From: Acidobacteriota bacterium
GTDB taxonomy: Bacteria; Acidobacteriota; UBA6911
DNA length: 33,095 bases
Assembly: GCA_031271905.1 (NCBI GenBank)
Contig: JAISUT010000062.1
Location: 1 to 33,095 of the forward strand
Direction of reading: 5' to 3'
Under the pieces are notes generated by a model, which was given only the letters and a program-made list of their open reading frames with translations, was not told the DNA's origin and did not search any database. Position numbers and translations under genes: made by a program. Positions 3,887 to 33,077 of the stretch are shown here, one piece after another; the first letter of the stretch is position 1, and each line of letters starts with the position of its first letter.

Positions 3887-3920
3887 TTCAGATCTCTTTC
3901 TCGCGAAGAGCGTGCTGAAA
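3886..3920 (-). promoter_or_regulatory. Start-codon-proximal hairpin, candidate riboswitch expression platform
   Basis: On the minus strand TTTCAG (3920-3915) pairs with CTGAAA (3891-3886), and inside it CTCTT (3910-3906) pairs with AAGAG (3898-3894). The AAGAG arm is the presumed btuF ribosome site and the outer arm reaches the first base of the ATG. This fits a translational OFF structure formed when cobalamin binds, but the pairing was judged by eye. Confidence 0.5.
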
Positions 3921-3927
3921 AAAGCGA

Positions 3928-4125
3928 CCGGGGCAGGTTTCCTGACTTACGGGTGGTGATTTTCGCCGCGCCCTCCGCCTTCCCCGTCGCGAAACGAGTG
4001 GCTGGCTTGCCTGCGGCAAGACCGTGGAGGGCAGACTCCCCGATTACAGTGGCGGGACCGTGCGGGATTCTCACCCGCTTCCCTTGGTTGGAACCCGTCC
4101 TCGCGGGCAGGCTCGTCAACCCCGG
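3928..4125 (-). ncRNA. Cobalamin riboswitch
   Basis: Read on the minus strand, the aptamer has the hallmark blocks in order: GGGAAGCGGGTGAGAATCC, then CGGTCCCGCCACTGTAA, and near the 3' end AAGTCAGGAAACCTGCC (B12 box region). The outer stem P1 can form from CCGGGG (4125-4120) with CCCCGG (3933-3928). It lies directly upstream of btuF, the expected place for feedback control of B12 uptake by adenosylcobalamin or another corrinoid. Confidence 0.93.
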
Positions 4126-4141
4126 CGCATTTCAGAAACAA

Positions 4142-5328: not shown

Positions 5329-7068
5329 TCACCGCCACTTGTCCACCGAGGCGCTCGCCAGGTAGCCGAAGTCGCCCGCCTGCCAGAAGAAGTTGGTCCC
5401 CCCGCCCAGCGACAGGACGTTGATGTTGCCGGGGCTGCGGAACTGCGGGATCTCCGCGTCCCTGGGCATCTTCATCCATGTGGCCAGCGGCTCCTGCCCC
5501 TGCCTGCCGTAAGGCAGGACGAAGTTCTGCACGGCGTAGTAGTCGTCGAGCCACGCCCCGACGGTGACCTTGGTGTTCTTGTGTATCCAGTCGATCAACT
5601 GCTCCTTGGAGCCGAACCCCTCGTTCTCCTTGAGCTGTTTGATGATCGTCGGATCCAGCAGCAGGGTCGTCGAGGAGAACGGGCTGACGAACTTCAGCCA
5701 GAACGGTATCTGGTCGTGGAACGGCTTGCCGAAGCTCTGGTCCGGGTGCGTGAAGCCCCAGCCGAGGAAGGTGCTGACCACGCTCTCCCCCGGCTTGAAG
5801 CCCTTCTGCACATGCAGCGGGTTCCAGCCTTCGGGCAGATCCTCCTCGTTCTCCGGGAAGCAGAGGTTGTTGTAGTTGTAATTGTTCCCCAAGCTCCCCA
5901 TGTATATCTCCCCGGGCTTGCCCGAGGCGCCGAGGTTGAGGGATATGAGCGTCCACGCCCTGCCAATGACGGCGTTGGAGTGGTTGAACGGGCCGAGCGC
6001 GCCGATGCCGGAGTTCATCTTGAGCTCCTCGCGCACGGGCCCGTTGACCACGACCATGCCGGCGAACGAGGTGGTCGATGTGGAGATGGAGGTCCCGCCC
6101 ATGGACGCTATCGCCAAGATGACCGGCAGGTGCTCGGGCTTGGCGCCGGCCATGACCGCGTTGACCGCCACCTGCTCCACGGTGTAGCTCCACGCCTCGT
6201 GCGGCGAGGACGCCTGCATCGCGCCGACGACCTCGTCCGGTTCGTGGCTCGTGCCTTTGAGCATCTCCGCGACGCGCGCCTCCGTGGGCAACACGACCGG
6301 CAGGCCGTCCGTCCAGCCATTCTCCAAGAACAGCTTGTGCAGGTTCTCCTCGGTGTCGGCGGCGACCAGGCGCGGCGTCGGCCTCTCGATGACGCCGCCC
6401 GAGGCGTCTTCGGCGCTCAGGGGCCGGGTGATGGCGTCGATGATCTCGCCCAGCACCGGCTTCCCGGTGAGGGGATCGCTCCCTTGGAGGTATTTGTTGC
6501 ACAACTCCGCCGGGATGCCCGTGATGGGGTGCGGGACGAAGGTGAAGCGGAAGCCCGGCATGCCTTTCTTGAAGGCGTAGGTCTTCACCAAGTCTTCGAA
6601 AGTCCTGGTGACGACCGGGGCGGTGGGGATGCCTAACTTTTCAACTGTGAGGGAATGGCCGACGACCGACGGCGAGCAGGAGCTTCAATGCCCCACCCCC
6701 ATGATCATCGCGTGCCCCTTCTCCTTGATCTCCGCCCACAACTTGGGGTCGTCGTCGAAATAGGTGCCGGTCTTCGTCCGCACCTCCCACTTGGTCTTGG
6801 GGTATCTCTCGCCGAGCAGCTTCTGCATCTCGGTGAAGAACTGGTGCGTGTCGGTGAAACCGATATCGACGATGTAGACGGTCTTGCCGTCCAACGAGTC
6901 GAGCCGCGGCGCCATCGGCACCCGGGCGATGGGCGGCGGCTGGCCGAGCGGGTTCAGCACCGCGACCTTGGCGTCGTCGGCCAGGACGGGCGCCGGGGCG
7001 GGCGCGGCCGCAAGGAGCAGGAACGCGACCAGGGCGCAGCCCGGCAACAGGCGAAGTCTCTTCATCAT
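5329..7068 (-). CDS. Exported UGSC-type selenoprotein (in-frame UGA = Sec)
   Basis: Two open frames, 7068-6688 and 6684-5329, lie in the same phase and are separated only by a TGA at 6687-6685. Read through, they give one 579-residue protein with Sec128-Ser-Ser-Cys131, a redox-type U-x-x-C motif matching the UGSC (seleno)protein family as I recall it. The stretch after the UGA (LTVEKLGIPTAPVVT) has no internal start and resembles the family. A paralogue at 31170-33077 aligns across the join without a break. Residues 1-30 form a Sec signal peptide (ALVAFLLLAAAPAP, likely cut after VLA), so the protein is probably periplasmic. The C-terminal part holds WTDGLPVVLPT, AVNAVMAGAKPEHLPVI and IGALGPFNHSNAVIGRA blocks shared with the paralogue. 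The start is ATG 7068 or 7065 behind GAGGAGG. The reaction is unknown. If Sec machinery is absent, the same region would be two fragments. Confidence 0.82.
6658..6687 (-). promoter_or_regulatory. UGA selenocysteine codon with candidate bacterial SECIS hairpin
   Basis: The TGA is at 6687-6685. Downstream, GCCG (6673-6670) can pair with CGGC (6661-6658), leaving the 8-base loop UCGGUCGU. The loop has GGUC about 18 bases after the UGA, as in the apical loop of the E. coli fdhF SECIS. The stem is short, so this is only a candidate; bacterial SECIS elements are poorly conserved. Confidence 0.5.
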
Positions 7069-8523: not shown

Positions 8524-9219
8524 CTACGGGCGGGCCTCGCCGCAAGCGATGGTTTGGACGAAGCCGTCGCCGGAAGTCCAGACGCCCGGGAAAATCCGCC
8601 CGGTTTGCAGGCAATGGCCGCGCCAGCGGTTCCACCCGTCAGGGCGCGCAAACGGCTCGACCTCGACGACCACGCTGCGCGTGTCGCGGCGCAAGCCTTC
8701 CCGCAGGGCCTTCAGCACGCTCTCTTTCGCGCTCCAGACCAGGTTGGCGACAAGGGCTTCGCGCTCCGGGGCGGCGGCGGCGAGCCGCCCGATCGCCTCG
8801 ACCTCCGCAGGGGTGAAAAAATCGGCGACCATGGCGTCGCTGCGCGGCGCGACCGCCTCGATGTCGCAACCGAGCGCGACCGCGTCAGGGGCGGCGCAAC
8901 AGAAGCCCCTGCCCCCGGCATGGCTGATGGAGATCGACACCCCCGCCGGCCCGCCTTGGAAGAACGCTTCGGGCGCGCCCGCCCCCGCCGCCCCCTCCCC
9001 GACGGCGCATATCTCGATCTGGTCGAGCGCCGCGTCAGGGGGGAGCCCCCACCGCCCGCGCAACAGCATTTTCGCCGTCCAGCGCCCCAGACGCCAGTCG
9101 TCGCGCCGCTTGGGGAAGCGCAAGCCCGCCAAGAACTCGCGTTCGCCGACGCCCAGCCATCCGTCGCCGCCGGGGACGTCGGCGAGGTTTTGCGTGAGGA
9201 AGCGTATGGAGTCGAACAT
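8524..9219 (-). CDS. 4'-phosphopantetheinyl transferase (Sfp type)
   Basis: This enzyme moves the phosphopantetheine arm of CoA onto carrier proteins (ACP, PCP or similar). The 231-residue protein has the family motifs: substrate-side FLAGLRFPKRRDDWRLGR-TAK near residue 30, VSISISHAGG, Mg-binding GCDIEAV, and WSAKESVLKAL with the catalytic Glu-Lys. I chose ATG 9219; a longer frame to 9537 would overlap the DUF3343 gene and encode non-conserved sequence. No good ribosome site is seen, so it may be translationally coupled to the gene ending 35 bases upstream. No fatty acid, polyketide or NRPS partner is in the window, so its carrier protein is unknown. Confidence 0.85.
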   Translation of the reverse strand: MFDSIRFLTQNLADVPGGDGWLGVGEREFLAGLRFPKRRDDWRLGRWTAKMLLRGRWGLPPDAALDQIEICAVGEGAAGAGAPEAFFQGGPAGVSISISHAGGRGFCCAAPDAVALGCDIEAVAPRSDAMVADFFTPAEVEAIGRLAAAAPEREALVANLVWSAKESVLKALREGLRRDTRSVVVEVEPFARPDGWNRWRGHCLQTGRIFPGVWTSGDGFVQTIACGEARP

Positions 9220-9254
9220 AGGGGGAAGTGTCCGGGAGACGCCCGTCGGAGGCT

Positions 9255-9512
9255 TCAGTGCGTCGGCTTGTCCGTGGCGGGCAGCGGATGGATGGAGTCG
9301 AACGGGACGCCGCCCCGTCCCAGCAACTCCCGCAGGCGCCCCTCTTCGCCCCAGTCGAAACGGATGGCGACGCCGCAGTCGCTGGAAAGCTGGCGCGGGA
9401 CGGGGATCAACTTGATCTTGACCCTTTCGCGCAGCAACGCCTTCTCGGCCTTCAACGCCGCCGAGTTGGTGTGAAACAGGATGACGCCGTATGCGTCGGG
9501 AGCCCCGTCCAT
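9255..9512 (-). CDS. DUF3343 protein (putative Se/S carrier-like)
   Basis: A small soluble protein of 85 residues from ATG 9512, which has GGGGA at good spacing; upstream Met codons to 9557 add non-conserved residues. It matches the DUF3343 family: AYGVILFHTNSAALKAEK at the N-terminus, then IKLIPVPR-LSSDCGVAIRFDW with a single conserved Cys. Pfam labels this family a putative Se/S carrier, and the domain is found fused to or beside YedF, a selenium-metabolism protein; both points are from memory. It lies upstream of the phosphopantetheinyl transferase and about 2 kb from the UGA-containing gene on the same strand. A role in delivering selenium or sulfur is inference. Confidence 0.75.
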   Translation of the reverse strand: MDGAPDAYGVILFHTNSAALKAEKALLRERVKIKLIPVPRQLSSDCGVAIRFDWGEEGRLRELLGRGGVPFDSIHPLPATDKPTH

Positions 9513-9586
9513 GATTCCCCGTCCGATGACCGTCCAACCGCGCAACCCCGCCATCATACTGTGTTGGATTGCCTTGGACGGTGTGT

Positions 9587-9663
9587 TGGTGGGCCCAGAG
9601 GGACTTGAACCCCCGACCCGCAGATTATGAGTCAGCTGCTCTAACCAACTGAGCTATGGGCCC
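9587..9663 (-). tRNA. tRNA with CAU anticodon (Ile2 or elongator Met)
   Basis: The cloverleaf starts GGGCCCA at 9663, with D arm GCTC...GAGC, anticodon loop CTCATAA (CAU), T arm GTCGGGGGTTCAAGTC region, acceptor TGGGCCC, A73 and encoded CCA (9589-9587). The acceptor and A73 resemble tRNA-Ile2, read after C34 lysidination by TilS, but Met cannot be excluded. The anticodon stem GCTGA/TCTGC has a central T-T mismatch. Confidence 0.88.
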
Positions 9664-9678
9664 ACGAAATTCCGGGTT

Positions 9679-9707
9679 AAGGTAACACGTTACCCCCCGG
9701 CGGTAAA
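9679..9707 (-). promoter_or_regulatory. Promoter of the CAU tRNA
   Basis: Minus-strand TTTACC (9707-9702), 17-base spacer, TACCTT (9684-9679), 15 bases before the tRNA 5' end. The -10 is followed by AA as in the tRNA-Val promoter. A perfect palindrome GGTAACACGTTACC (9681-9694) overlaps the -10 and spacer and could be an operator. Confidence 0.5.
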
Positions 9708-9777
9708 GCGCGAATCTTCGCTCCAGGCGCTCCCAGGCGCTCCGCCGCCTGAGGACACCATCGCTTCACGGGGGCGC

Positions 9778-9808
9778 GGGGGCGCACTCCGCCTTGAAGC
9801 GCGCCCCC
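9778..9808. terminator. GC-rich hairpin after the HTH regulator gene
   Basis: GGGGGCGC (9778-9785) pairs with GCGCCCCC (9801-9808) around a 15-base loop, 36 bases past the stop at 9845. There is no U-run, so terminator activity is doubtful. Confidence 0.35.
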
Positions 9809-9844
9809 TGCGCCTTGGCTTGCCCAAAGAACCGATGCGGATGG

Positions 9845-10957
9845 CTAGATCAGGCGGTCGCCCGCGATGCGGGTGTCGTATCCGCCCAGCCCTTCCAACT
9901 CCCGCCTGAACGCCGTGCGCCCCAAGGTGTCCAGCAACACCTGCACGCCGGGGTGGTTCAGGTTCTGCTTGCGGATGACCAGATCGTAGCGCTCGCGCTC
10001 CAACATGATGAAATCAAGCCCGAAGATGCAAGCCGCCGTCTTGGTCGCCAGACAACAGTCCGCCACGCCGGTCTTCACCTGCCACGCCGCAGGCAGATGG
10101 CCGGCGGCGACGTTGCCATATCCCTTGACGCGCTGCGGAGAGACGCCGTTTTGCTTCAGATGGGAGTCGAGCATCTGGCGGATGCCGGAACCGGGTTCGC
10201 GGTTGACGATGCTCACGTCCTTGCGCGCCATGTCGGCGACAGTCCGAATGCCCTTCGGGTTCCCTCGCGCGACCACGATGCCCTCCTCCCAGAATGCGTA
10301 GGAGATCACCGCCACGGAACCCTTCGGGAAATTCTTGCGCACGGCGGGGAGGTTCGACTCGCCGGTCGCCTCGTCGCGCAGATGGGAGCCCGCCACATGC
10401 ACCAGTGATTTTTTCAGCAGCTCCAACGATTGCGAGCTGTTGCGGTAGGCGACCACCGCCTCCACCCCCTCGCGTTGCAGGTGGCGCAATAAAACGGAGA
10501 TGCCCGGGTCGCAACCGGCGATCAGGAGGCGCTTGTGGAACATCTTCTCGTCGTTGAAAAACTGCACCCGCGCCTTGCCGGAGCGCTTCCCCGCATCCAG
10601 CAACACCGCGTCCGCAGGCGGCAGGCCCCATTCGATCGGAGTCGGCAACATCGCCACCAGGCGTTTGTCCACTTCGCAAAGTTGCACCGGCACCCCTGGT
10701 TGCGGCTCCTGTTCGGAAGGCATCAGCTCCGCGACCTCGACCGTCGCCGGGGCGTCGTCGGACTCCAAACGGAACAGCTCCTCCACCGTCACGTCCAGCA
10801 CATGCGCCAGCTTCAACGCCACGACGGTGTTCGGCACATACAACCCGGTCTCCATCGCATAGATCGTCTGCCTGGTCACATTGATCTTCTTCGACAGCTC
10901 TATCGCCGACAATCCCCGCTTCTGCCTGTAGTGCGCCAAGTTGTTTCCAACGGTCAT
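9845..10957 (-). CDS. HTH regulator with periplasmic-binding-protein-like domain
   Basis: A 370-residue one-component regulator. Residues 1-66 form an XRE-type helix-turn-helix (LAHYRQKRGLSAIELSKKI, VTRQTIYAME, NTVVALKLAHVLDVTVEELF). The rest resembles a type II periplasmic-binding fold as in molybdate/tungstate or LysR ligand domains: CDPGISVLLRHL, VAVISYAFWEEGIVVARGNPKGI, IVNREPGSGIRQMLDSHL, GVADCCLATKTAA. Such fusions often sense oxyanions such as molybdate, which is a family-level expectation, not shown here. ATG 10957 follows AAGGGGTGG; longer starts are possible. It is separated from zapA by 151 bases with an extended -10 promoter, so it is probably transcribed independently. Its targets are unknown; the tRNA and DUF3343 genes are the nearest downstream. 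Confidence 0.8.
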   Translation of the reverse strand: MTVGNNLAHYRQKRGLSAIELSKKINVTRQTIYAMETGLYVPNTVVALKLAHVLDVTVEELFRLESDDAPATVEVAELMPSEQEPQPGVPVQLCEVDKRLVAMLPTPIEWGLPPADAVLLDAGKRSGKARVQFFNDEKMFHKRLLIAGCDPGISVLLRHLQREGVEAVVAYRNSSQSLELLKKSLVHVAGSHLRDEATGESNLPAVRKNFPKGSVAVISYAFWEEGIVVARGNPKGIRTVADMARKDVSIVNREPGSGIRQMLDSHLKQNGVSPQRVKGYGNVAAGHLPAAWQVKTGVADCCLATKTAACIFGLDFIMLERERYDLVIRKQNLNHPGVQVLLDTLGRTAFRRELEGLGGYDTRIAGDRLI

Positions 10958-11033: not shown

Positions 11034-11108
11034 CGACATGACAGCCGATTGCACGGATTGCGAGCCAATCGACCGCAGGCGATCGACCGCAACGGCCGTC
11101 CCGAGGCG

Positions 11109-11420
11109 TCAATCCGACGCCCCTTGGGAAAAAAGGCGCTCCAACATGGCTATGCAAGCGGTGGAGCGTTTGCCGACCGCTTCGTCCAGCCTCGCCGTCT
11201 CGTCCTTGGCGCGGCTCACGTCGTCGGCGATGCTCAGCGCCGCCAAGACCGCCACCTTGAGGGTGTCCACCGCGCCCGTGGCGGCGGCGACATCGCGCAT
11301 CCGCTTGTCCACAAGGGCGCAGATCGCCTTGAGGCGCGCCGGATCGCCATCCGTGCGTAGAACGTACTCTCGGTCGTAGATGCGGGCGCTGACGGATTTC
11401 GGTTCCTGCGGCTCGCTCAT
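11109..11420 (-). CDS. zapA: Cell division protein ZapA
   Basis: A 103-residue FtsZ-associated protein that bundles FtsZ filaments at midcell. The N-terminal half has the ZapA signature: VSARIYDREYVLRTDGDPARLKAICALVDKRMRD. The C-terminal half is a helix (LKVAVLAALSIADDVSRAKDE) of the kind that makes the coiled-coil dimer. It is the last gene of the thrS-to-zapA run, 122 bases after the ZapB-like gene on the same strand. The gap 11421-11542 shows no further gene. Confidence 0.9.
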   Translation of the reverse strand: MSEPQEPKSVSARIYDREYVLRTDGDPARLKAICALVDKRMRDVAAATGAVDTLKVAVLAALSIADDVSRAKDETARLDEAVGKRSTACIAMLERLFSQGASD

Positions 11421-11542
11421 GTCTTCGTATCCCCGGCCTCCGCTCCCGGACTCGCATGTCCGCCGCCCGCCCCGACGCCAGATGCGTCGATTGGAAGCGG
11501 CGGCGGGAAAAATTGGAAGTGAACGACGAAAACCGGCCCCCC

Positions 11543-12013
11543 CTACTTCACGCCTTTTCCGCCGTCGCCGCCGTCGTCATACAAGGCCGCGACCATCGAT
11601 TTCAGGTTCTCCATGCGTTTGCGCATCTCCTCGCGCTCTTTTTCAAACTTCGCCAGCACGTCCAACAGCTCGGTCTCGCTCTGGTCCTTCGTCTCCAACC
11701 GCTCCTTCAGGTCGGCGATCTCGCCCTGCAACGGCTCGACCGCCTTGGCCTTCTCCGCCAACGCGACGTTCTCCGCGCGCAACGCATCGCCAACCCCGGA
11801 CAGGCTCCGCACCTGCTCCCGCAGACGCCCGTTTTCGGCGAGCGCCGCCTCCGCGCCCGCCGCCGCAGACTTCAATGCGGCGTTCTCCGCGCGCAGGGAC
11901 GCCGTCTCTTTGCGCAGCGCCTTGAATTCCTCGACCGCGCGGAAAATCTTGTCTTCCAGATGGCCGAACCGCTCCAGCCCCGCCGGCACCCATTGCAATT
12001 TCGTATCACCCAT
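11543..12013 (-). CDS. ZapB-like coiled-coil cell division protein
   Basis: A 156-residue protein that is almost entirely a predicted coiled coil from about residue 15 to 145: heptads through HLEDKIFRAVEEFKALRKETASLRAE and repeated LRAEN and KERLE blocks. This composition and its place between pheT and zapA fit the ZapB-like family that bridges ZapA-bound FtsZ rings to other factors. Coiled coils align poorly, so the name rests on context as much as sequence. The ATG at 12013 is 2 bases after the pheT stop (12016), so translation is likely coupled. It ends in an Asp/Gly/Lys-rich tail. Confidence 0.7.
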   Translation of the reverse strand: MGDTKLQWVPAGLERFGHLEDKIFRAVEEFKALRKETASLRAENAALKSAAAGAEAALAENGRLREQVRSLSGVGDALRAENVALAEKAKAVEPLQGEIADLKERLETKDQSETELLDVLAKFEKEREEMRKRMENLKSMVAALYDDGGDGGKGVK

Positions 12014-12015
12014 GG

Positions 12016-14094
12016 CTATCTAAGTCCCGCCCCGTGTTTTGTGGTCAAAAATGCCGTGACGGCATTCATGAACTCTTGGATGCGTTCTATTGTAAGCGTT
12101 TTTCCCCGGTCTAGGAAGGTCAGCCGCAAAGTCAGGCTCACCTTCCCCTCGGGTATCTTCTCGCCCTCGTAGACGTCGATGAGCCGCACCCCCGTCAATT
12201 CCGCGATCCCCAGCCCCTCGACGCCCGTGCGCACCTCATGGAACGCGAGTTCCTTGCCGACCACGATGGAAAGGTCGCGCTCCGCCTGCGGCAACTTGGG
12301 CAACGGCGCGTAGACGACGGGTGCGAACGCCTTGGGTGCAAGGCGCTCCAAGTCGATTTCGGCCAAAAGCACCGGCTGGCGCAGCTTGAACTTCTCCCGC
12401 AACGCCGGGGCCAGCGTCCCCAAAACGCCCACGGCTTCCCCGCCCGCCTTGACGCAGGCTGCGTCCGCGCCGTCCAGCCACGGGACGCCCCCTTGCAACG
12501 GCTCGACGGAGACGTCACGCACCCGGAGCCGTTGCAGCAGCGCCTCGACCACCCCCTTCATGTGGTAGAACGTGTAGGCTTGCTCGCCGCTCGCCCAGTT
12601 GGCGTCGTAAAAGCCTCCGGTGCCGAGGACGCCCAGCGCATTCCTCTCCGAAGGGACGCCCCCCGCGCCCGGGAAATAGGTCTTGCCGACCTCGAACAGC
12701 CGGACGTCGCGCCGGCTGAAGTTGAAGTTGCGCCGCGCCGCGCGCACCAAGCCCGCCGCGAGGGTCGTGCGCATGTATTTGGTCTCCTCGGTCAGGGGGT
12801 TGCGCACCGCGACGCGGCCGCCGCCTTCCGCCGCAGCCTGCGCGCCCGTAGCGGCCGGGGGGAACTCCAGATGGTCGGCTTCGGCGGCGAAGCTGAGGTT
12901 GACCGCCTCGGAGTGGCCGTAGCCGCACAGCGCCTCGCGGACGGCGTTCTCCAGCACATAGACCGGGGAGTGGCAGCCTGCGGTGGGCGCGGGCGGCAAG
13001 GTCGCCGGGATGTTGTCGTAGCCGTAAAAGCGCGCCAGCTCCTCCACAAGGTCGGCTTCCAGCTCCATGTCCGCGCGGAACGTCGGGCAGAGCACGTCCC
13101 AGGCCCCCTCGCCCCTCTTCTCCAGCGCGAACCCCAGCTTTCCGAGCGTCGCCTCGACGAAGTCGTCGGAGAGCTCCACCCCCAGCAACGACGCGGCGCG
13201 CCGCCTGTCGAGCGGGATGGCGACCGGGGCCTTGGGCGCGGGGTAGACGTCCTTCAAGCCCCCCGCGACGCGCCCCCCGGCGAGTTGCTCGACCAAGTAT
13301 GCGGCGCGCGCGACCGCCGCGACGGTGCAGTCCCAGTCCGCCCCGCGCTCGAAGCGGTACGCCGCCTCGGTCGAAAGCCCCAGGCGCCGTGAGGTGCGCC
13401 GGATGGAGGCGGGTTGGAAATACGCCGCCTCGATCAGGATGCGCGACGTGCCGGGGGCGATCTCCGAATCGAGGCCGCCCATGACCCCCGCGATGGCGAC
13501 AGCCCCCTCGCCGTCGTTGATCATCAACATGTCGCCGTCCAGCTTGCGCTCCACGCCGTCGAGGGTCTGGAACGCCGCGCCGGGCGTGGCGCGGCGCACG
13601 ACGACCTTCCCGCCGCGCAACCGGTCGAAGTCGAAGGCGTGCAGCGGATGGCCTGTTTCGAGCAGGACGTAGTTGGTCACGTCCACCACGTTGTTGAGAG
13701 GGCGCATCCCCGCCGCCTCCAACCGCCGCCGCATCCACTCCGGCGAGGGCCCCACATTCACCCCGTCCATGACCACGCCCGTGTAACGGGGGCACAGCTC
13801 CGGGTCGGCGATTTCGATGGCGAACGGGACCCTTTCCCCGCCGGTCTTCAAATCCCCCTTCGCCGGCGGCTTGCGGAGCTGACGGCCGTAGAGCGCCGCC
13901 ACCTCCCGCGCCATGCCGACGTGGCTCAGGCAGTCGGGGCGGTTGGACGTGACCTCGACGTCCAGCACCACGTCGCCCCCGAGGGCGTCTATCGACTCCA
14001 CCAGGAGCCCTTGCATCGAGAGGTCGGCCTTGAGCCTTTCCGGGCTTTCCGGCAGATCGACGTATTCTTTAAGCCATTCAATGCTGATTTTCAT
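12016..14094 (-). CDS. pheT: Phenylalanyl-tRNA synthetase beta subunit, short form lacking the EMAP-type domain
   Basis: The beta chain of the alpha2-beta2 enzyme that charges tRNA-Phe; this subunit binds tRNA and edits Tyr. At 692 residues it is about 100 shorter than the usual near-800. The sequence goes from MKISIEWLKEYVDL-ESPERL straight to the B1 block DVEVTSNRPDCLSHVGMAREVAALYG near residue 45, so the OB-fold tRNA-binding domain normally inserted there is missing. The B3/B4 editing region (GVMGGLDSEI, EAAYFQPASIRRTSRRLGLSTEA--RFERG), B5, the catalytic-like core and the C-terminal ferredoxin-like anticodon-binding domain (PLPKLPQAERDLSIVV) are present. It starts 15 bases after pheS, with GGAG 9 bases upstream. 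Confidence 0.93.
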   Translation of the reverse strand: MKISIEWLKEYVDLPESPERLKADLSMQGLLVESIDALGGDVVLDVEVTSNRPDCLSHVGMAREVAALYGRQLRKPPAKGDLKTGGERVPFAIEIADPELCPRYTGVVMDGVNVGPSPEWMRRRLEAAGMRPLNNVVDVTNYVLLETGHPLHAFDFDRLRGGKVVVRRATPGAAFQTLDGVERKLDGDMLMINDGEGAVAIAGVMGGLDSEIAPGTSRILIEAAYFQPASIRRTSRRLGLSTEAAYRFERGADWDCTVAAVARAAYLVEQLAGGRVAGGLKDVYPAPKAPVAIPLDRRRAASLLGVELSDDFVEATLGKLGFALEKRGEGAWDVLCPTFRADMELEADLVEELARFYGYDNIPATLPPAPTAGCHSPVYVLENAVREALCGYGHSEAVNLSFAAEADHLEFPPAATGAQAAAEGGGRVAVRNPLTEETKYMRTTLAAGLVRAARRNFNFSRRDVRLFEVGKTYFPGAGGVPSERNALGVLGTGGFYDANWASGEQAYTFYHMKGVVEALLQRLRVRDVSVEPLQGGVPWLDGADAACVKAGGEAVGVLGTLAPALREKFKLRQPVLLAEIDLERLAPKAFAPVVYAPLPKLPQAERDLSIVVGKELAFHEVRTGVEGLGIAELTGVRLIDVYEGEKIPEGKVSLTLRLTFLDRGKTLTIERIQEFMNAVTAFLTTKHGAGLR

Positions 14095-26080: not shown

Positions 26081-29000
26081 TTACAGTGTACTAGCGGGCG
26101 CGTTGTAGAACTCGAACCAGTCGATCCAGACGTCCGTGCCCGGCATGAAGTAGAAGTCCACGTTGCGCACGCCGGTCTCCACGCCGATCTGGTACTCCCA
26201 CACGGCGTAGCCGGTGTCGTCCGGAGACCCGATCCGGATCGTCGCGCTGCTGTCCGGGCTCGTGCTGACGCGCACGTCCCTGGTGCCGTCGCCCTTGCCG
26301 TACACGCGCAGCTTGACGTTCTCGCCGGAGGATCCGAAGTCCAGACCGTTGTAAACGAACGACACGTTGTTCGGGTCGGTCACATGGACGGATGCGTCGA
26401 TGCGCCCACCCTCCCCCGCGGTGTTGCGGATCGCGTAGCCGTCGTCCGCAGAGTCGAAGTCCTCCGCCTGCGTCACCCGGTACGCGCTGCAAGGCTCCGC
26501 CCGCGCCTCTAGGAACTGCACGGATTCCATCGCGAAGACGTCGCCGGGGAACGTGAAATAGAGGTGGTGCGTCCGCTTGACGGCCGAGCCGTAGAGGTTG
26601 AAGACCTTGCCCAGCGTCTCGCCGCTGGTGTCCGGGAAGTCGATGGACGTGAGCACCGCCCCGTCCGCCGACCCGTCGCGGACCTCCACCCTCGCCGCCG
26701 CGTTCTGCGTGGCGCCGGTCACGACCACCTTGGTGGAGCCCGCGTCGCCGAACGTGAAGCCGTGAAACCCCAGAGCGCCCGGGGCGACGGAGTCCGCCCC
26801 CGACTCCAGGTTCACGGCGTACGGATCCCTGTCGGTCTTCGGGTTCTCCGTGAACTGCCAACCGTAGAAATACATGCTGCCGCTCGTGAACATGAAGCAG
26901 ATGTCCTGCAGCCCCCTCAGATTCCGGAGCGCGCTCGCGTCCTCGGGGACGAAGGTCTGGCCTGCGTATTCGAAGCCCCAAGCGTCGGCGTTCTTGTTGA
27001 AGTACACCGTGCCGAGCTGCGGACCCGAGCGCGACCCCAGGTGGACCTCGGCCTCGGCCGCGTTGCCGCCCGCGTTCGCGTTGACGCCGTAGAAGATCAG
27101 GTTGTCGCTGCCCCAAGGTCCGAAGTCCACGTTGCGGTAGAGGACCCAACTGCGGTTGCCCGTGTTGTTGACCAGGCGGTCGTCCGCCGGCCCCACGAGC
27201 TGGAGGTTGTTGTCGCCGTCGCTGTCGTGGGTGCGACCGCCGGTGTACGTCCTCGCCAAGACCAGCTCGTATGGGTTCGTGACGCTCTCCGGCTCCTCGA
27301 AGCCGACCGACGAGAACGTCAGGGTGGCTTGCACGGGTGCGCTTGCCCACCCGTTCGTCGCGGACGCGACCACCGCGAACGAGCCGTTCTTCCGCGCCGT
27401 GACCGTGCCGACGCCCGTCTCCGGGGCGACGCTGATCGTGGCGTTCGCCGACGCCGTCGAGAAGTTCTCCAAGGTGCCCACGGACAGCGAGATCGCGGAG
27501 GTCGCGCCGGGCGGCCACGCGACCGCGCGCACGGTCGCCGTGTTCGCGGCGGCGGACAGGGCGCGCGATCCGGAGAGCACCTCCAGCGCGATCCGGGTCA
27601 CCGGCACCATGTCCGGGTTCTGCCCGGAGATCGCGACGTCGGCCTCGCCGTAGACGCCGGAGCCGTCCAGCGCGGTCGCGCGGACTGTCACGACGCCGTC
27701 GTACAGCGGGCGCAGCACGCCCGCCGCGTCGATGGTCGCCAGCGCCGGCGCCGCAGCGGCGGCGTCCTTGTTGCGCACGCTCCAAGCCACGCCTGGGATC
27801 GTGGCGTCCGCCGGGGAGACGGAGGCGGACATGGGGAGGTTGCGTGACTTCGCCGCGACCTCGGTGGCGCCGTCCGCGCCCGCGACCTCGATGACCGCCG
27901 CCGGCGTGATCGCGCCCTGACCGCTGATCCGCACGTCCACGTAGGCCGATGCGCCGCCGCCGTCCAGCGCGGTGGCTGTGACGCGCACGGTTCCGTCGCG
28001 CAGCGCCGTCAGCACTCCACCCCGGTCTACGCGCGCCGCGCCCGTGGGCGTGCCGTCCACGTTCGTCACGGCGTAGGCGACCTTGTCGTAGTCGGCGTTG
28101 GCGGGCGACGTCTTCGCGGAGAGCTTCAGCTTGCCGCCGGGCGCGCCGATGGCCGCAGGGCCTTCTATCGGCGTCAGGGTGACGCCCGTCACCGCCTGCG
28201 TGCGCGCGGCGTTCACGGTCACGCTCGCGTCCTCGATCCCGTGCGACTTGGCGGCGACTGTGATCGGTCCGCCCGTGCCGTCGGACTTCACGACGGCCAC
28301 CACCTTGCCCGAGAACGCCCTGCGGGCCGGGGAGCGGAACGCGTCGAAGTCGTTCGAGTTGCCGTTGTCCGTCGCGACGAGCGTGCCCGCGCCGGATACG
28401 CGGAACTCGACGTAGTTGTTCGCGTCGGCGACGAGCACGCCGGCCGCGTCTTGTACGCTCGCCTCCACGAACACCAGGTCTTTGCCGTCCGCCGCGATCG
28501 TCTGGCGGTCTGCCGTCAGCGCCACCTTCGCCGGCGGGCCGAACGTCTCGATCCTGTCCGTCGCGACGACGACCCCAGACTCGTCGTAAGCCTTCGCCTC
28601 CACGACGCCGTCCTCGTATGGCACGACCCACCTGTAGTTCAGCGTGTCGTCCGTCGCCAAGTCCACGCGCTGCCTGCCCAGCGACTCGCCGTTCAGGAAC
28701 AGCTCCACGCTGTAGGCGTTGCTGTACGCCCAGACCGGCACGCCGCCCTCGGACTCGATGTCGTTGTACGAGATCGCGGAGACCGGCGCCCAGTACGGCA
28801 GCAGGTGCAGCACGGGCTCGTCCGTCCACACGCTCTGGTAGAAGTAGTAGATGTCCTTCGGCAAGCCTGCCGTGTCGATGATGCCGAAGTACGAGTTCTT
28901 GGCGGCGGTGTTGCTGGACGTGCCGCCGTAAGGCGACGGCTCTCCCAGGTAGTCGAAGCCGGTCCAGACGATCTCGCCCATGTCGAACGCATAGTCGCGC

Positions 29001-30919
29001 ACCGTCTTGTGCGCGGCGGCGGCGGTCTTCGTGTAGATGCCGTTGGCCGAGCTCTGGATGTGGTTGTCGTAGCCGGACGCCTGATAGCGCATGTTGCCCG
29101 TCGTGCTGAACAGCGCGGTGTCCGGCAGCATGTACACGCCCCTGCTGCGCACGGCCGACGACGTCTCGCCGCCGTAGATCTTAAGGTTCGGGTACTTGTC
29201 GTGCCACTTCGTGAAGTTGACGCCGCGGATGTTGATGTCGAGGTAGTTGTATCCGAACAGGTCGAGCACCTCGGCGCCGATCTGCATCGGTCTGCCGCTC
29301 GCGTCCTCCGGGGCGTTCGTCGAGTACGTCGTGTATGCGTTCGACCCGGGGTCGGACGCGCGTACGGTGTCGTGCAACGCCGTAGCCCTGGCGATGGCGT
29401 TCGCGTCCGTGTGGGCGCCGCCGACCTCGTTGCCGAGGCTCCACATTACGACGCTCGGATGGTTGCGCTCGCGCCTGACCCAGCTCGTGACGTCCAGCGC
29501 GCTCCAGGCGTCGTAGAAGCGCGCGTAGTCGTATGCGTTCTTGGCCGAAGACCAGCAGTCGAACGACTCGGTGACGACCATCAGCCCGATCCTGTCGCAA
29601 ATCTCCAGCAGCTCGGGCGTCGGCGGGTTGTGTGCCGTGCGCACGGTGTTGGCGCCCATGGCCTTCAGCAGTTCCATCTGGCGCTCGACCGCGCGGTAGC
29701 TGACCGCCGCTCCCAGCGCGCCGAGGTCGTGGTGCATCGCGACGCCGTGCAGCGTCACGCGCCTGCCGTTGAGGAAGAAGCCGTCGTCGGCCGTGGCAAG
29801 GATCGTGCGGAAGCCGAACGACGTGACGTACTCGTCGCTGAAGCCCCCGCCCGTCACGGTCGTCTTCAGCGTGTAAAGGTTCGGGTCGTCGATGTCCCAA
29901 AGCTTGGGGGAGGCGACGGTCAAGGTCTGTCGAACGGTGGCGGTGGCACCCGTCGCCATGGCGTCGATGGTCGCGGTCGCGTCGGCCACCCGGGCGCCGT
30001 CCGCGCCGTACACGGCCTGCTTGACCGTGATGCCCGTGATCGCCGACGCGGACGTGTTCACGACCTCCGTGTCGACGGTGGCGACACCGCCCGCGCCGTT
30101 CGTGGTTACGTACGTGCCGTCGGGCGCCACATGCAGGGGCGCAGTCTTGATCATCCAGACGTTGCGGTAGATGCCGGCACCCGAGTACCACCGGGAGTTC
30201 GGGTTCCGGAAGTAGCACCGCACGGCCAGGACGTTCGGCTCGTTGCCGTATTTCAGGTAGCCGGTGACGTCCAGGTGGAACGCCGTGTAGCCGTATGCCC
30301 AGGTGCGGGTCAAGTCCGCCGGGTTCAGCGTCAGCAACGTGCCGTTGATGTACACGTTCGTGTCCATGTACACGCCGTCGAAGCGGATCGTGACGTTCTT
30401 GGCCGCGTCCTCCGGCGCCATGTAGAACGTCTTGCGGTACCAGCCGTACCCCGTCGCGTACATCGCGCTGACGTTGTTCGACGCGCCCGTGCCGAACTGG
30501 TGGATCTGCCAGTCGTGCGGCAGCTCGACGTCCGCCCACTTCGAGTCGTCGAACTCGGGCGCCTGCGCGGCCGCGTCCTGCGCCGCGACGTAGAACTTCC
30601 AGCCGTCGTTGAACAGCTCGCTGCGCACGCCGCCGCTGACGGAGTCGCGCACACGCATGTCGGTCGCCGGCAGCACGGCCGCCTGGGACGCAGTAGGCGC
30701 GACCGACGGCGGGAGCAGCAGGGACGCGGCGAGCGCCAGCAGGGCGAACGCCCTCGCAGCCAACCCGCGCCTTGCAAGGTTTGCGTGGCTTGAAGCGGTT
30801 GCGGGTGATGCGGTCTGGCGCCGTCCCAGTCCAAGGCGGCGCGCGGGTGACTTGGAAGCGATGTTCCCGATCCTGAATGCATGGACAGGGCGCACAAGCT
30901 GTTTCTGCCGCATTCCCAT
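26081..30919 (-). CDS. Secreted multidomain glycoside hydrolase family 2 (beta-galactosidase-like)
   Basis: A 1,612-residue exported enzyme from ATG 30919 (GAGAGGTGA upstream). The long N-region ends in a signal peptide (AARAFALLALAASLLLPP). It continues with a GH2 sugar-binding domain (about 80-240; FNDGWKFY, LPHDWQI, YGWYRKTF), an Ig-like domain and the TIM barrel (about 350-680; HGVAMHHDLGALG, NTVRTAHNPP). The likely acid/base is Glu498 in SLGNEVGG and the nucleophile Glu585 in YGGETSS. Beyond it are a DUF4982-like segment (WTDEPVLHLLPYW), several Ig-like/BIG2-like repeats (900-1180), and two carbohydrate-binding-module-like sandwiches, the last (about 1480-1612) starting QAEDFDS and ending in a Trp-rich strand. 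The substrate is probably a beta-galactoside or related plant or host glycan, not settled. The architecture recalls Firmicutes enzymes, and the flanking IS91 remnant suggests acquisition by transfer. Confidence 0.9.
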   Translation of the reverse strand: MGMRQKQLVRPVHAFRIGNIASKSPARRLGLGRRQTASPATASSHANLARRGLAARAFALLALAASLLLPPSVAPTASQAAVLPATDMRVRDSVSGGVRSELFNDGWKFYVAAQDAAAQAPEFDDSKWADVELPHDWQIHQFGTGASNNVSAMYATGYGWYRKTFYMAPEDAAKNVTIRFDGVYMDTNVYINGTLLTLNPADLTRTWAYGYTAFHLDVTGYLKYGNEPNVLAVRCYFRNPNSRWYSGAGIYRNVWMIKTAPLHVAPDGTYVTTNGAGGVATVDTEVVNTSASAITGITVKQAVYGADGARVADATATIDAMATGATATVRQTLTVASPKLWDIDDPNLYTLKTTVTGGGFSDEYVTSFGFRTILATADDGFFLNGRRVTLHGVAMHHDLGALGAAVSYRAVERQMELLKAMGANTVRTAHNPPTPELLEICDRIGLMVVTESFDCWSSAKNAYDYARFYDAWSALDVTSWVRRERNHPSVVMWSLGNEVGGAHTDANAIARATALHDTVRASDPGSNAYTTYSTNAPEDASGRPMQIGAEVLDLFGYNYLDINIRGVNFTKWHDKYPNLKIYGGETSSAVRSRGVYMLPDTALFSTTGNMRYQASGYDNHIQSSANGIYTKTAAAAHKTVRDYAFDMGEIVWTGFDYLGEPSPYGGTSSNTAAKNSYFGIIDTAGLPKDIYYFYQSVWTDEPVLHLLPYWAPVSAISYNDIESEGGVPVWAYSNAYSVELFLNGESLGRQRVDLATDDTLNYRWVVPYEDGVVEAKAYDESGVVVATDRIETFGPPAKVALTADRQTIAADGKDLVFVEASVQDAAGVLVADANNYVEFRVSGAGTLVATDNGNSNDFDAFRSPARRAFSGKVVAVVKSDGTGGPITVAAKSHGIEDASVTVNAARTQAVTGVTLTPIEGPAAIGAPGGKLKLSAKTSPANADYDKVAYAVTNVDGTPTGAARVDRGGVLTALRDGTVRVTATALDGGGASAYVDVRISGQGAITPAAVIEVAGADGATEVAAKSRNLPMSASVSPADATIPGVAWSVRNKDAAAAAPALATIDAAGVLRPLYDGVVTVRATALDGSGVYGEADVAISGQNPDMVPVTRIALEVLSGSRALSAAANTATVRAVAWPPGATSAISLSVGTLENFSTASANATISVAPETGVGTVTARKNGSFAVVASATNGWASAPVQATLTFSSVGFEEPESVTNPYELVLARTYTGGRTHDSDGDNNLQLVGPADDRLVNNTGNRSWVLYRNVDFGPWGSDNLIFYGVNANAGGNAAEAEVHLGSRSGPQLGTVYFNKNADAWGFEYAGQTFVPEDASALRNLRGLQDICFMFTSGSMYFYGWQFTENPKTDRDPYAVNLESGADSVAPGALGFHGFTFGDAGSTKVVVTGATQNAAARVEVRDGSADGAVLTSIDFPDTSGETLGKVFNLYGSAVKRTHHLYFTFPGDVFAMESVQFLEARAEPCSAYRVTQAEDFDSADDGYAIRNTAGEGGRIDASVHVTDPNNVSFVYNGLDFGSSGENVKLRVYGKGDGTRDVRVSTSPDSSATIRIGSPDDTGYAVWEYQIGVETGVRNVDFYFMPGTDVWIDWFEFYNAPASTL

Positions 30920-30953
30920 CCGTTTGTCACCTCTCCCGCAAACATACACCATG

Positions 30954-31149
30954 CCTTGCACAGCCCCCCCTTCGACGTCGGGAGTTCAACGTCCACCACG
31001 AACACCCGCTTCAACAACTGGCACCCACGCATGGCGACGGGGGCGCGGGAACCAGCGCCGCCAGACGCTCCATCAGCTCCATCGGCTCGAACACGACGTG
31101 GCTCGTCCCGTCCCGCCAACGCAGTTCGAGGATGGTTAGTGTTTGCATA
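30954..31149 (-). pseudogene. IS91-type transposase remnant, frameshifted
   Basis: From ATG 31149 the frame reads LRWRDGTSHVVFEPMELMERLAALVP, which matches a conserved region near the C-terminus of IS91-family (Y2 rolling-circle) transposases. It then derails to a stop at 31014-31012. A second frame from 31032 gives LLKRVFVVDVE, like the final WAELMRRVFxxDV segment of the same proteins. The catalytic Tyr region and most of the gene are gone. It lies between the GH2 gene and the Thr-substituted paralogue, marking a past insertion and decay. Confidence 0.72.
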
Positions 31150-31169: not shown

Positions 31170-33077
31170 TTATTTTCCGGCTTCCGTAAGCGTTGCGCCG
31201 GTTATCTTCTTGATGTAGTAGTATGTGTTTACGCCGTTGTTTTGGCGAAGAGTGCCGCTGCCGTAACTGCCCATTGGGTACATGCCGAGCGTCTGCCCCG
31301 ACATTGAACCCGCGACAAAAATCGCAATGCCGTCCGTGCTGATTACAGGCACCGTGCCGCCCGATTGGCAGTCGCTGACGGACAACCCGCGCATTGTGCC
31401 GCTCTCTGCCAGTTTCCGCACACCCTTTTGCAGGTTGGCAGGCAGTTTGTCCCACGGCAGTCTGTGGTAGTCGCGAATGTGATCAAGCAGTTTCTCACGC
31501 GTGAACCCTGCGGCGGCAAGTTGACGTGCCTGTCCGGGGTACAGTATCAGAATATAGTTTCGGCGCATAAGTTGCGCGGGGTCTGTCGCCTGCAACGCGT
31601 GCAGGAACGGATTGACAACGCCCTTTGCCACCTGCTCCAACGTTGGCGCGTCGCCGCGTGCGCGTTGCGTGATTTTCTCCAAATCCGCATCGAAGCCATA
31701 CGTCCATATTCCCGACGGCATAGCCTGGTCGCCGAGCTGAAACACACCGTCGATGTAAAATATTTCCTCAATCATCACCGTGCTATCCTGCGGCGAGAAG
31801 CCCTGCGAAACCGCATACGGCTCCCATGGGCTGAGTTCCGAGTTCTCGGCGAATACGAGGTTGCAGAATCTGGACGCTTCACCGTACATACCGCCGTCGA
31901 ACTTGTAGTTAATCCACCCGCAGTTGAGTGCGCACAGGCTGATTGCGCGGCCGATTGAGTTGTTGGCGCGGTTGCCGGGACCGAAGCAGCCCATTTGTCC
32001 GCTAATGCCCAGTTCCTTCGCGACAGGTCCGCCAACGTTGACGAGCAGGCTGTCGCCGTTGATTGCGGCAAGCAGATGATACGAGTAGAAATCCGGGTCG
32101 CAGAGCATTTCAACCGCCGTGATAATCACGGGCAGATATTCCGGCTTCGCACCCGCCATTACGGCGTTGACGGCAATCTTCTCAATGGTGACGATGCCGC
32201 GTCCCGGTTGCATTACGCCCGGTATGACCTCGTCCGGCTTGCGACTCGTGCCGGTCAGCATTTTAGCGACTGCTTCAGGCGTCGGCGGCGCAACAGCGAT
32301 GCCGTCGCTGAGTCCGTGTTCGAGGAAGTAATCCTGAAACTTACAAAAAGCGTCAGAATAGTCCGCGCCCTCGAAACGCAGGTTGGCGAAGTCGTACTCA
32401 AACGGTTTCGGGTGCTGTTCCTCTGCTGTCAACGGGTCGGTCAGCGCGTGGACGATAACGTCAAAGTAGTCCGCGACAATCGGAACAAACGTCTTCGGAT
32501 TGTTGCCCGCGGCACACCAACGTTCGGCGTTCACCGCGACCATTCGGACGGTCGGCATTCCGTGAACCATTGCACTGCGCCGGGCTTGCTCGATAGTCGT
32601 GTCTAGGCAGACGAGTAGACCCGGTTTGCCGGAACGTTCATATGCGACTGCAGGCTCGGTGTCCGTGCCGCCCGTGTGGCGCATTCCGGCTATGAACGCG
32701 TCATAGTTGCGCAGAACCTCGGCGTCAGCGTCCGCGGACGCGAGGTTCGCCGTGCCCTGCACATAATCGACTGTTGCGGTCGGGTACGTTGCCAACAACT
32801 GTGCCTGCAACGGTTTGAGGAATACGTCATCGTCGGGCTTCTCGCGGAAGATGACAATGCGCTTGCCGTCCAACGTGTCAAGACGCGGGACGGACAATCC
32901 GCAGAAGTCACGTATGTCCGGCTTCGCGCGGGGGTTCAAGACTTCCAGCGTTTCAGCCCTTCCGGACGCGCATCCTGCGGGAACCGCCAAGGCGGACGCG
33001 CCCACGGCCGCCGTCGCGGCGCCTTTGAGGAAACTCCTGCGGGTGGAACCGTCCTTTTCATCCGATTTGTCGTGCAT
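31170..33077 (-). CDS. Tat-exported UGSC-family paralogue with Thr-Gly-Gly-Thr in place of U-S-S-C
   Basis: A 635-residue protein from ATG 33077 (AGGAG upstream). The N-terminus has a twin-arginine motif STRRSFLKG, a hydrophobic stretch and an AGC lipobox-like end (residues 12-36), so it is probably exported folded and perhaps lipidated. It aligns along its length with the selenoprotein at 5329-7068: EVLNPRAKP, RLDTLDGKRIVIF, HGLSDGIAVAPPTPEAV-KMLTGTSRKPDEV, AVNAVMAGAKPEYLPVI, GNRANNSIGRAISL. At the redox site it reads MRHTGGTD (residues 135-138 are TGGT; bases 32664-32675), so both Sec/Cys positions are Thr. It therefore cannot do the same chemistry by that site. Base composition of the body looks lower in GC than the window, while the signal region looks host-like. 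Function unknown. Confidence 0.85.
   Translation of the reverse strand: MHDKSDEKDGSTRRSFLKGAATAAVGASALAVPAGCASGRAETLEVLNPRAKPDIRDFCGLSVPRLDTLDGKRIVIFREKPDDDVFLKPLQAQLLATYPTATVDYVQGTANLASADADAEVLRNYDAFIAGMRHTGGTDTEPAVAYERSGKPGLLVCLDTTIEQARRSAMVHGMPTVRMVAVNAERWCAAGNNPKTFVPIVADYFDVIVHALTDPLTAEEQHPKPFEYDFANLRFEGADYSDAFCKFQDYFLEHGLSDGIAVAPPTPEAVAKMLTGTSRKPDEVIPGVMQPGRGIVTIEKIAVNAVMAGAKPEYLPVIITAVEMLCDPDFYSYHLLAAINGDSLLVNVGGPVAKELGISGQMGCFGPGNRANNSIGRAISLCALNCGWINYKFDGGMYGEASRFCNLVFAENSELSPWEPYAVSQGFSPQDSTVMIEEIFYIDGVFQLGDQAMPSGIWTYGFDADLEKITQRARGDAPTLEQVAKGVVNPFLHALQATDPAQLMRRNYILILYPGQARQLAAAGFTREKLLDHIRDYHRLPWDKLPANLQKGVRKLAESGTMRGLSVSDCQSGGTVPVISTDGIAIFVAGSMSGQTLGMYPMGSYGSGTLRQNNGVNTYYYIKKITGATLTEAGK

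Follow-up and report, generated by a model that had tools for sequence, protein, structure and literature searches.

A UGSC-fusion homologue lacking the Sec/Cys redox pair in an Acidobacteriota genome, with a likely Clostridia-like origin and a Tat leader shared with a resident paralogue

UGSC proteins, which are not known to have an assigned function, form one of the common environmental selenoprotein families, with 255 sequences in the GOS survey (PMC2398784). That survey describes a fusion of UGSC with a second, uncharacterised conserved domain (UGSC/Unknown_1) and proposes a thioredoxin-like fold for UGSC (PMC2398784). A Sec/Cys-free UGSC clade is not described in the available portions of PMC2398784, PMC13188914, PMC7539508 and PMC9312934. 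The present analysis concerns a protein of this kind, encoded within a window of 33,095 nucleotides (the whole stretch of DNA analysed) from an Acidobacteriota bacterium. It is considered fairly probable that this protein belongs to an ancient Sec/Cys-free branch of the UGSC fusions, derives from a Clostridia-like donor, was re-addressed by a Tat leader, and acts as a non-redox enzyme.

The target protein and the selenoprotein of the same window

The target gene lies on the minus strand at 31170-33077 (stop included) and encodes a redox-pair-free UGSC-fusion protein of 635 aa. Its frame of 635 codons runs from an ATG at 33077 to a stop at 31170-31172 without internal stops, and a Shine-Dalgarno-like AGGAG is found 8 nt upstream of the ATG. 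The UGSC profile PF24696 scores 38.3 bits on the target and 106.9 bits on the selenoprotein of the window, both over the cut-off of 25. NF041046, which requires 125 bits, stays below its cut-off on both proteins, with 25.6 bits on the target and 77 on the Sec paralogue.

The protein has two parts. The N-terminal UGSC domain (32427-32876, minus strand; model residues 68-217) is a flavodoxin/PurE-like domain of alternating beta/alpha elements in the AlphaFold2 model. The C-terminal fused region (31173-32426, minus strand) contains the conserved residues C382 (codon 31934-31932), E438, R377, E411, and W418, and presumably corresponds to the ‘Unknown_1’ domain of the GOS fusions. A UGSC domain joined to a long conserved second region is the fusion architecture, and the target has it.

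The UGSC family is defined by the motif U-x-x-C, with Sec or Cys at position 1 and Cys at position 4. This motif is absent from the target, which has T-G-G-T at the same position (32664-32675, minus strand) and is therefore classed as a homologue lacking the motif and not as a UGSC protein proper. T135-G136-G137-T138, encoded by codons 32675-32664, aligns with U-G-S-C of the Sec relatives and with U-S-S-C of the selenoprotein in the window; the loop that follows is 3 residues shorter than in the Sec relatives. These alignments bear out the preliminary description, which had read the site as a Sec/Cys pair replaced by Thr/Thr. Its second reading, a Tat export signal, also holds, with a TIGR01409 score of 17.7 bits against a cut-off of 16.7 and a TRRSFLK motif.

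The Sec-containing paralogue occupies 5332-7068 on the minus strand (frame 7068-5332), with an HUSSC motif and its TGA at 6687-6685. Read by eye, its signal peptide is of the ordinary, non-Tat kind. The two proteins share 141 identities over 421 aligned columns (33%) with an E value of 3e-42, so their homology is not a matter of chance. The many long blocks that the two were said to share are present up to about residue 434, but the last 200 residues of the target do not align with the Sec copy. Blocks common to the target and the Sec fusions likewise run through residue 434, and blocks conserved throughout the Sec-free clade of the target reach the C terminus.

When folded, 57 nt taken from the selenoprotein's TGA are not unusually stable (z 0.50), and a search for SECIS elements gave zero Rfam matches at the gathering threshold. 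These results neither support nor exclude Sec insertion, and the reading of the TGA as Sec follows from family conservation together with selB, which is present in the genome. Elsewhere in the window are a cobalamin riboswitch (3915-4139, minus strand), which precedes a periplasmic-binding-protein ABC transporter, and a large beta-galactosidase-like protein of 1626 aa (26081-30961), recognised by eye.

A clade without the redox pair

Loci were collected by a scan of named genomes, from which the best 80 of 554 relatives were taken; all source sequences are MAGs or draft genomes, in which binning errors are possible. The alignment omits L083, L086, L107, and L134, which duplicate G007/G008 genes, and L111, L135, L146, L147, L154, L155, and L156, which are broken or partial. 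L138, L144, G7_330b, and G0_35sec were left out of a tree of 89 rows. A more careful tree uses 52 of the 89 rows; the leader-trimming motif is absent in 15 of the 52, which entered untrimmed.

In the 89-row tree, which includes loci from the best 80 of 554 relatives, the target falls within a Sec/Cys-free clade of 30 rows with SH-aLRT support of 100. The 52-row tree contains 26 of these 30 rows and supports the clade at 100/100 (bootstrap/SH-aLRT). The clade spans Acidobacteriota, one Myxococcota-assigned MAG, and Bacillota. Its members read H-TGGT (the target), NTAA, NTAG, LSGG, TTGG, TAGH, TSGS, TSGG, TATS, ASETG, DAIT, DAHT, or DSHS at the site. Additional Clostridia copies repeat these motifs, and two of them read KSCTTGG and KASTTGG, the former with a Cys beside the site. 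Exact TGGT is found in no protein other than the target among the best 80 of 554 relatives and the further Clostridia copies. A strict TGGT clade across genomes, for which the preliminary description proposed a test, is not borne out, and what the members share is the absence of U/C alone. The conserved feature of the clade is the absence of the redox pair, not TGGT itself.

A second Sec-free group of 8 rows (DSGQG, DSGMG, or DNGMG) sits inside the Sec rows of the 52-row tree with supports of 99/99 and 100/100. An AU test nevertheless fails to reject a single Sec-free clade of both groups (p 0.30), and for this reason no number of Sec losses is claimed. Other Sec-free or Cys rows (PSSST, PSCST, MSGGS, and FTGTS) lie outside the clade of the target in the 89-row tree.

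Ten Clostridia genomes hold 12 clade loci and 2-10 family matches each, and none of these family matches has an in-frame TGA. SelB is over cut-off in three of the 10, its absence in the other seven being provisional. In one Clostridia genome (G066:C24), a UGSC-family match at 11077-12372 lies about 1 kb from selB (8952-10043). The occurrence of the clade in genomes without SelB over cut-off would allow the contribution of selenium to be separated from that of the scaffold, and the Sec-free members are proteins that could be made in E. coli directly.

The loss of a redox pair after duplication could mean that the copy is on its way out. This reading is scarcely credible, even though TGGT does not recur among the best 80 of 554 relatives or the further Clostridia copies and a truncated copy of the 5' end of the target opens contig C18 (L067:1-1715), where about 204 nt match with one mismatch before the copy breaks off. 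Against decay, the 635-codon frame is intact and relatives without U/C are under purifying selection. Seven close pairs within the clade have dN/dS values of 0.078-0.154, and for two further pairs, drawn from two Sec-free groups outside it, the values are 0.097 and 0.119. The values for the target itself, taken near dS saturation, are 0.25 against L079 (dS 1.6) and 0.43 against its paralogue C67a with the leader included. When each sequence is left out in turn, the target retains 84/85 of the clade-invariant positions, and its relatives range from 76/83 to 84/84. The 27 Sec rows have 163 conserved positions; 85 of these are kept at a level of at least 85% in the 30 clade rows, but D134/U135/G136/S137 of the Sec loop are lost. 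Invariants specific to the clade are C382, E438, D229, F235, G237, K246, and G357. By these sequence measures the target is a specialised protein and not a decaying one.

Origin of the gene and of its leader

Target-matching places in the host genome number 12: four full-length stop-free copies, five with one in-frame TGA, and three partial. The four stop-free copies are the target, on contig C19, and three in tandem on contig C67. Among the matches listed, PF24696 occurs 10-27 times in every one of the 10 genomes of the genus (G000-G009), mostly with one TGA, and in the other 50 relatives it occurs once in four and not at all in 46. These counts amount to a lineage-specific expansion of UGSC-fusion selenoproteins in the genus of the window. 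Of its 10 genomes, three (G000, G007, and G008) carry the Sec-free clade of the target among the matches listed.

The three tandem Sec/Cys-free copies (L066:6224-11974, equal to G000:C67:82223-87973) adjoin a radical SAM gene and a gene for a 149-aa unknown protein. Two of them have a near-identical Tat leader, and their mature parts have 18-50% of residues in common per block. On contig C18 the truncated target copy is followed by an AbiEii-type toxin-antitoxin gene, and a second AbiEii gene stands beside another Sec-free cluster (L068:2553-3230).

The nearest relatives of the target are not those of its own genome. In the 89-row tree it belongs to an eight-row group with seven Bacillota rows (support 100), closest to L078 and L079 (97); the 52-row tree gives 100/100 for this group and 100/96 for the target with L078 and L079. 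Among the best 80 of 554 relatives, the nearest are rumen, gut, or digester Clostridia with 46-53% identity, as against 45% for its own C67a paralogue. An AU test rejects a grouping of the target with the Acidobacteriota redox-free proteins C67a, G7_330a, and G8_58a (p 7.7e-9; group picked after the first tree). The target has a GC3 of 0.70 throughout, compared with 0.90-0.93 for the Sec copy and the paralogues on C67. In a home-made gene list, the credible genes of the window have GC3 values of 0.83-0.94, and three ORFs at 0.67-0.76 look like wrong frames.

The leader has a different history from the remainder of the gene. Over codons 1-51 (32925-33077, minus strand), which encode the TRRSFLK Tat motif and a possible lipobox VPAGC read by eye, 148/153 nt (97%) are identical to C67a (G000:C67:84153-86033). 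Beyond codon 51, DNA identity to C67a is 39-68% per 51-codon block. The pair C67b/C67c has the same pattern, with a leader identity of 93% followed by 39-73%. Contigs C19, C18, and C67 of the genome carry this leader DNA, and a single additional match is weak (80%). RR leaders are present in all eight Acidobacteriota- or Myxococcota-assigned clade rows, though in one row the assembled leader is not in frame, and in none of the 22 Bacillota rows, where 0-28 residues precede the first conserved block. At L068:9946-10063 (G007:C330) an SRRKFF Tat leader and its UGSC gene are in different reading frames following a T run, through either a frameshift or an assembly error.

Since the leader of the target is C67a-like and its closest relatives are leaderless, the leader was copied between resident genes, here onto a gene of the leaderless type. 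It is strongly indicated, from the trees, GC3, and leader identity, that the target gene entered Acidobacteriota from a Clostridia-like donor and took a Tat (probably lipoprotein) leader from a resident paralogue. This graft would be a clear case of the transfer of an export signal from paralogue to paralogue onto an incoming gene, and would account for the presence of a single family in two compartments.

An active/dead pair formed by duplication inside the window is rejected, as the two genes occupy distant places in the tree. The TGGT protein could still work with, regulate, or act as a decoy for the selenoprotein that lies 26 kb from it, given that two exported members of one family share a contig in a genome with Sec decoding (selB). 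This is very improbable. The evolutionary histories of the two genes are separate in the trees and the AU test, the clade of the TGGT protein is also found in genomes without SelB over cut-off, and a family match within 26 kb has about a 16% chance under random placement of the copies in the genome. The local subfunctionalised pair of the preliminary description fails on these separate histories and the 33% identity, and a sensor or decoy role towards the selenoprotein of the window is at variance with a clade that also occurs in Clostridia, where 7/10 genomes lack SelB over cut-off and family matches have no in-frame TGA. What stands is the existence of a redox-pair-free version, its export in this organism, and its place in a functional and not a decaying lineage; a strict TGGT clade and a local duplication pair do not stand.

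Function and comparison with known systems

The AlphaFold2 model of the target is a confident one, with a pLDDT of 88.7 and a pTM of 0.89; that of the Sec paralogue is slightly less so, with 84.0 and 0.85. In the former, residues 68-217 form an alternating beta/alpha domain in which the TGGT loop follows strand 127-133. The best solved matches of this domain are flavodoxin/PurE/LarB-like with middling scores, and the model of the Sec paralogue has PurE-like and CheY-like matches among others. The C-terminal part has no known-fold match in Foldseek/VIA-align, where matches cover the N-domain alone, and no new fold is claimed for it; a PDB sequence search gives no match (best E 0.89). The C-terminal end of a strand is a usual substrate-binding place in flavodoxin/PurE-like folds.

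The favoured mechanism joins these features. A UGSC-fusion branch has dropped the Sec/Cys redox pair, and the rest of the two-part protein has stayed under strong constraint. A copy would then have passed from a Clostridia-like donor into an Acidobacteriota genome, where the Tat leader of a resident paralogue would lead to the export of a protein that had been leaderless and presumably cytoplasmic. The product would be a non-redox enzyme, such as a lyase, hydrolase, or isomerase, with a small molecule as its substrate. Its old Sec loop, at the C-terminal end of the strand, may now offer Ser/Thr/Gly groups, and the conserved C-terminal part may supply the remaining machinery. That the target performs ‘a different reaction’ than the selenoprotein, one of the roles first suggested for it, is possible and is the preferred reading. 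A more general version, that a widespread clade arose from a selenoenzyme family, with non-redox, selenium-independent chemistry on the two-part scaffold, gene transfer between gut Clostridia and Acidobacteriota, and a switch from cytoplasm to periplasm by a Tat leader copied from resident paralogues, is held tentatively.

Gene neighbours were tallied for 109 of 203 candidate ORFs, hand-picked for nearness and plausibility from the output of a home-made ORF picker. The Clostridia genes stand at the end of Opp/Dpp-type operons in L077, L085, and L090, and in tandem in L078, L085, and L090. Among the 109 proteins, the commonest Pfams are ABC transporter parts (9, 8, and 6 members), followed by DHDPS and Cu_amine_oxidN1 (4 each), Aldo_ket_red, GNAT, FAD_binding_2, and FMN_red (3 each), and DUF6282, Amidohydro_2, and molybdopterin domains (2 each). 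Genes for Opp/Dpp-type importers, DHDPS-like lyases, DUF6282 proteins, an amidohydrolase, and FMN and FAD reductases stand near the relatives, and DHDPS-like and DUF6282 genes also lie beside the Sec-free copy in G008:C178. Neighbours differ between loci, and no single one is constant. The neighbourhood points to import and breakdown of small molecules, and the target is most likely a non-redox enzyme of such an import/catabolic cassette.

Where the Sec once stood, clade members have S, T, or A and no one fixed residue, which argues against a simple Ser/Thr nucleophile and makes a non-catalytic N-domain possible. A pseudoenzyme whose N-domain binds the family substrate without chemistry, as a ligand-binding or sensor protein in uptake or signalling, is unlikely but deserves consideration. 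Its variable site residues, the placement of genes immediately after Opp/Dpp ABC transporters in L077, L085, and L090, and the Tat leaders on the copies here are in keeping with such a role. The Clostridia protein is leaderless, however, and hence no periplasmic binding protein, and many invariant charged and polar residues are retained in the C-terminal region. Alternatively, the redox site may have moved, with conserved C-terminal Cys residues replacing the Sec/Cys pair. C382 is Cys in 30/30 clade rows, and C405 and C570 are Cys in 9/9 rows of the subclade of the target. This alternative is improbable, because C382 is also Cys in 4/27 Sec-containing rows, and over the whole clade C405 and C570 are conserved in only 40% and 57%. 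A non-redox enzyme remains the preferred reading.

Among known structures, model residues 68-217 align with PurE at a Z of about 9 and an rmsd of about 3 Å over 110-121 residues, and the N-domain aligns with LarB at a Z of 8.6. The likeness to PurE, LarB, and flavodoxin is one of fold only, with an identity of 10-15% and weak Foldseek E values (best 1.9e-3 overall). Thioredoxin-like chains are not among the structural matches listed by Foldseek/VIA-align, and the modelled N-domain fold is not clearly thioredoxin, unlike the 2008 suggestion for UGSC. The GOS survey that describes the UGSC/Unknown_1 fusion counts UxxC Sec forms and Cys homologues (PMC2398784), whereas the target has neither Sec nor Cys at the site. 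With the UGSC family of PF24696 and NF041046 the target shares the N-terminal domain, and it differs in lacking U/C and in carrying a long C-terminal extension.
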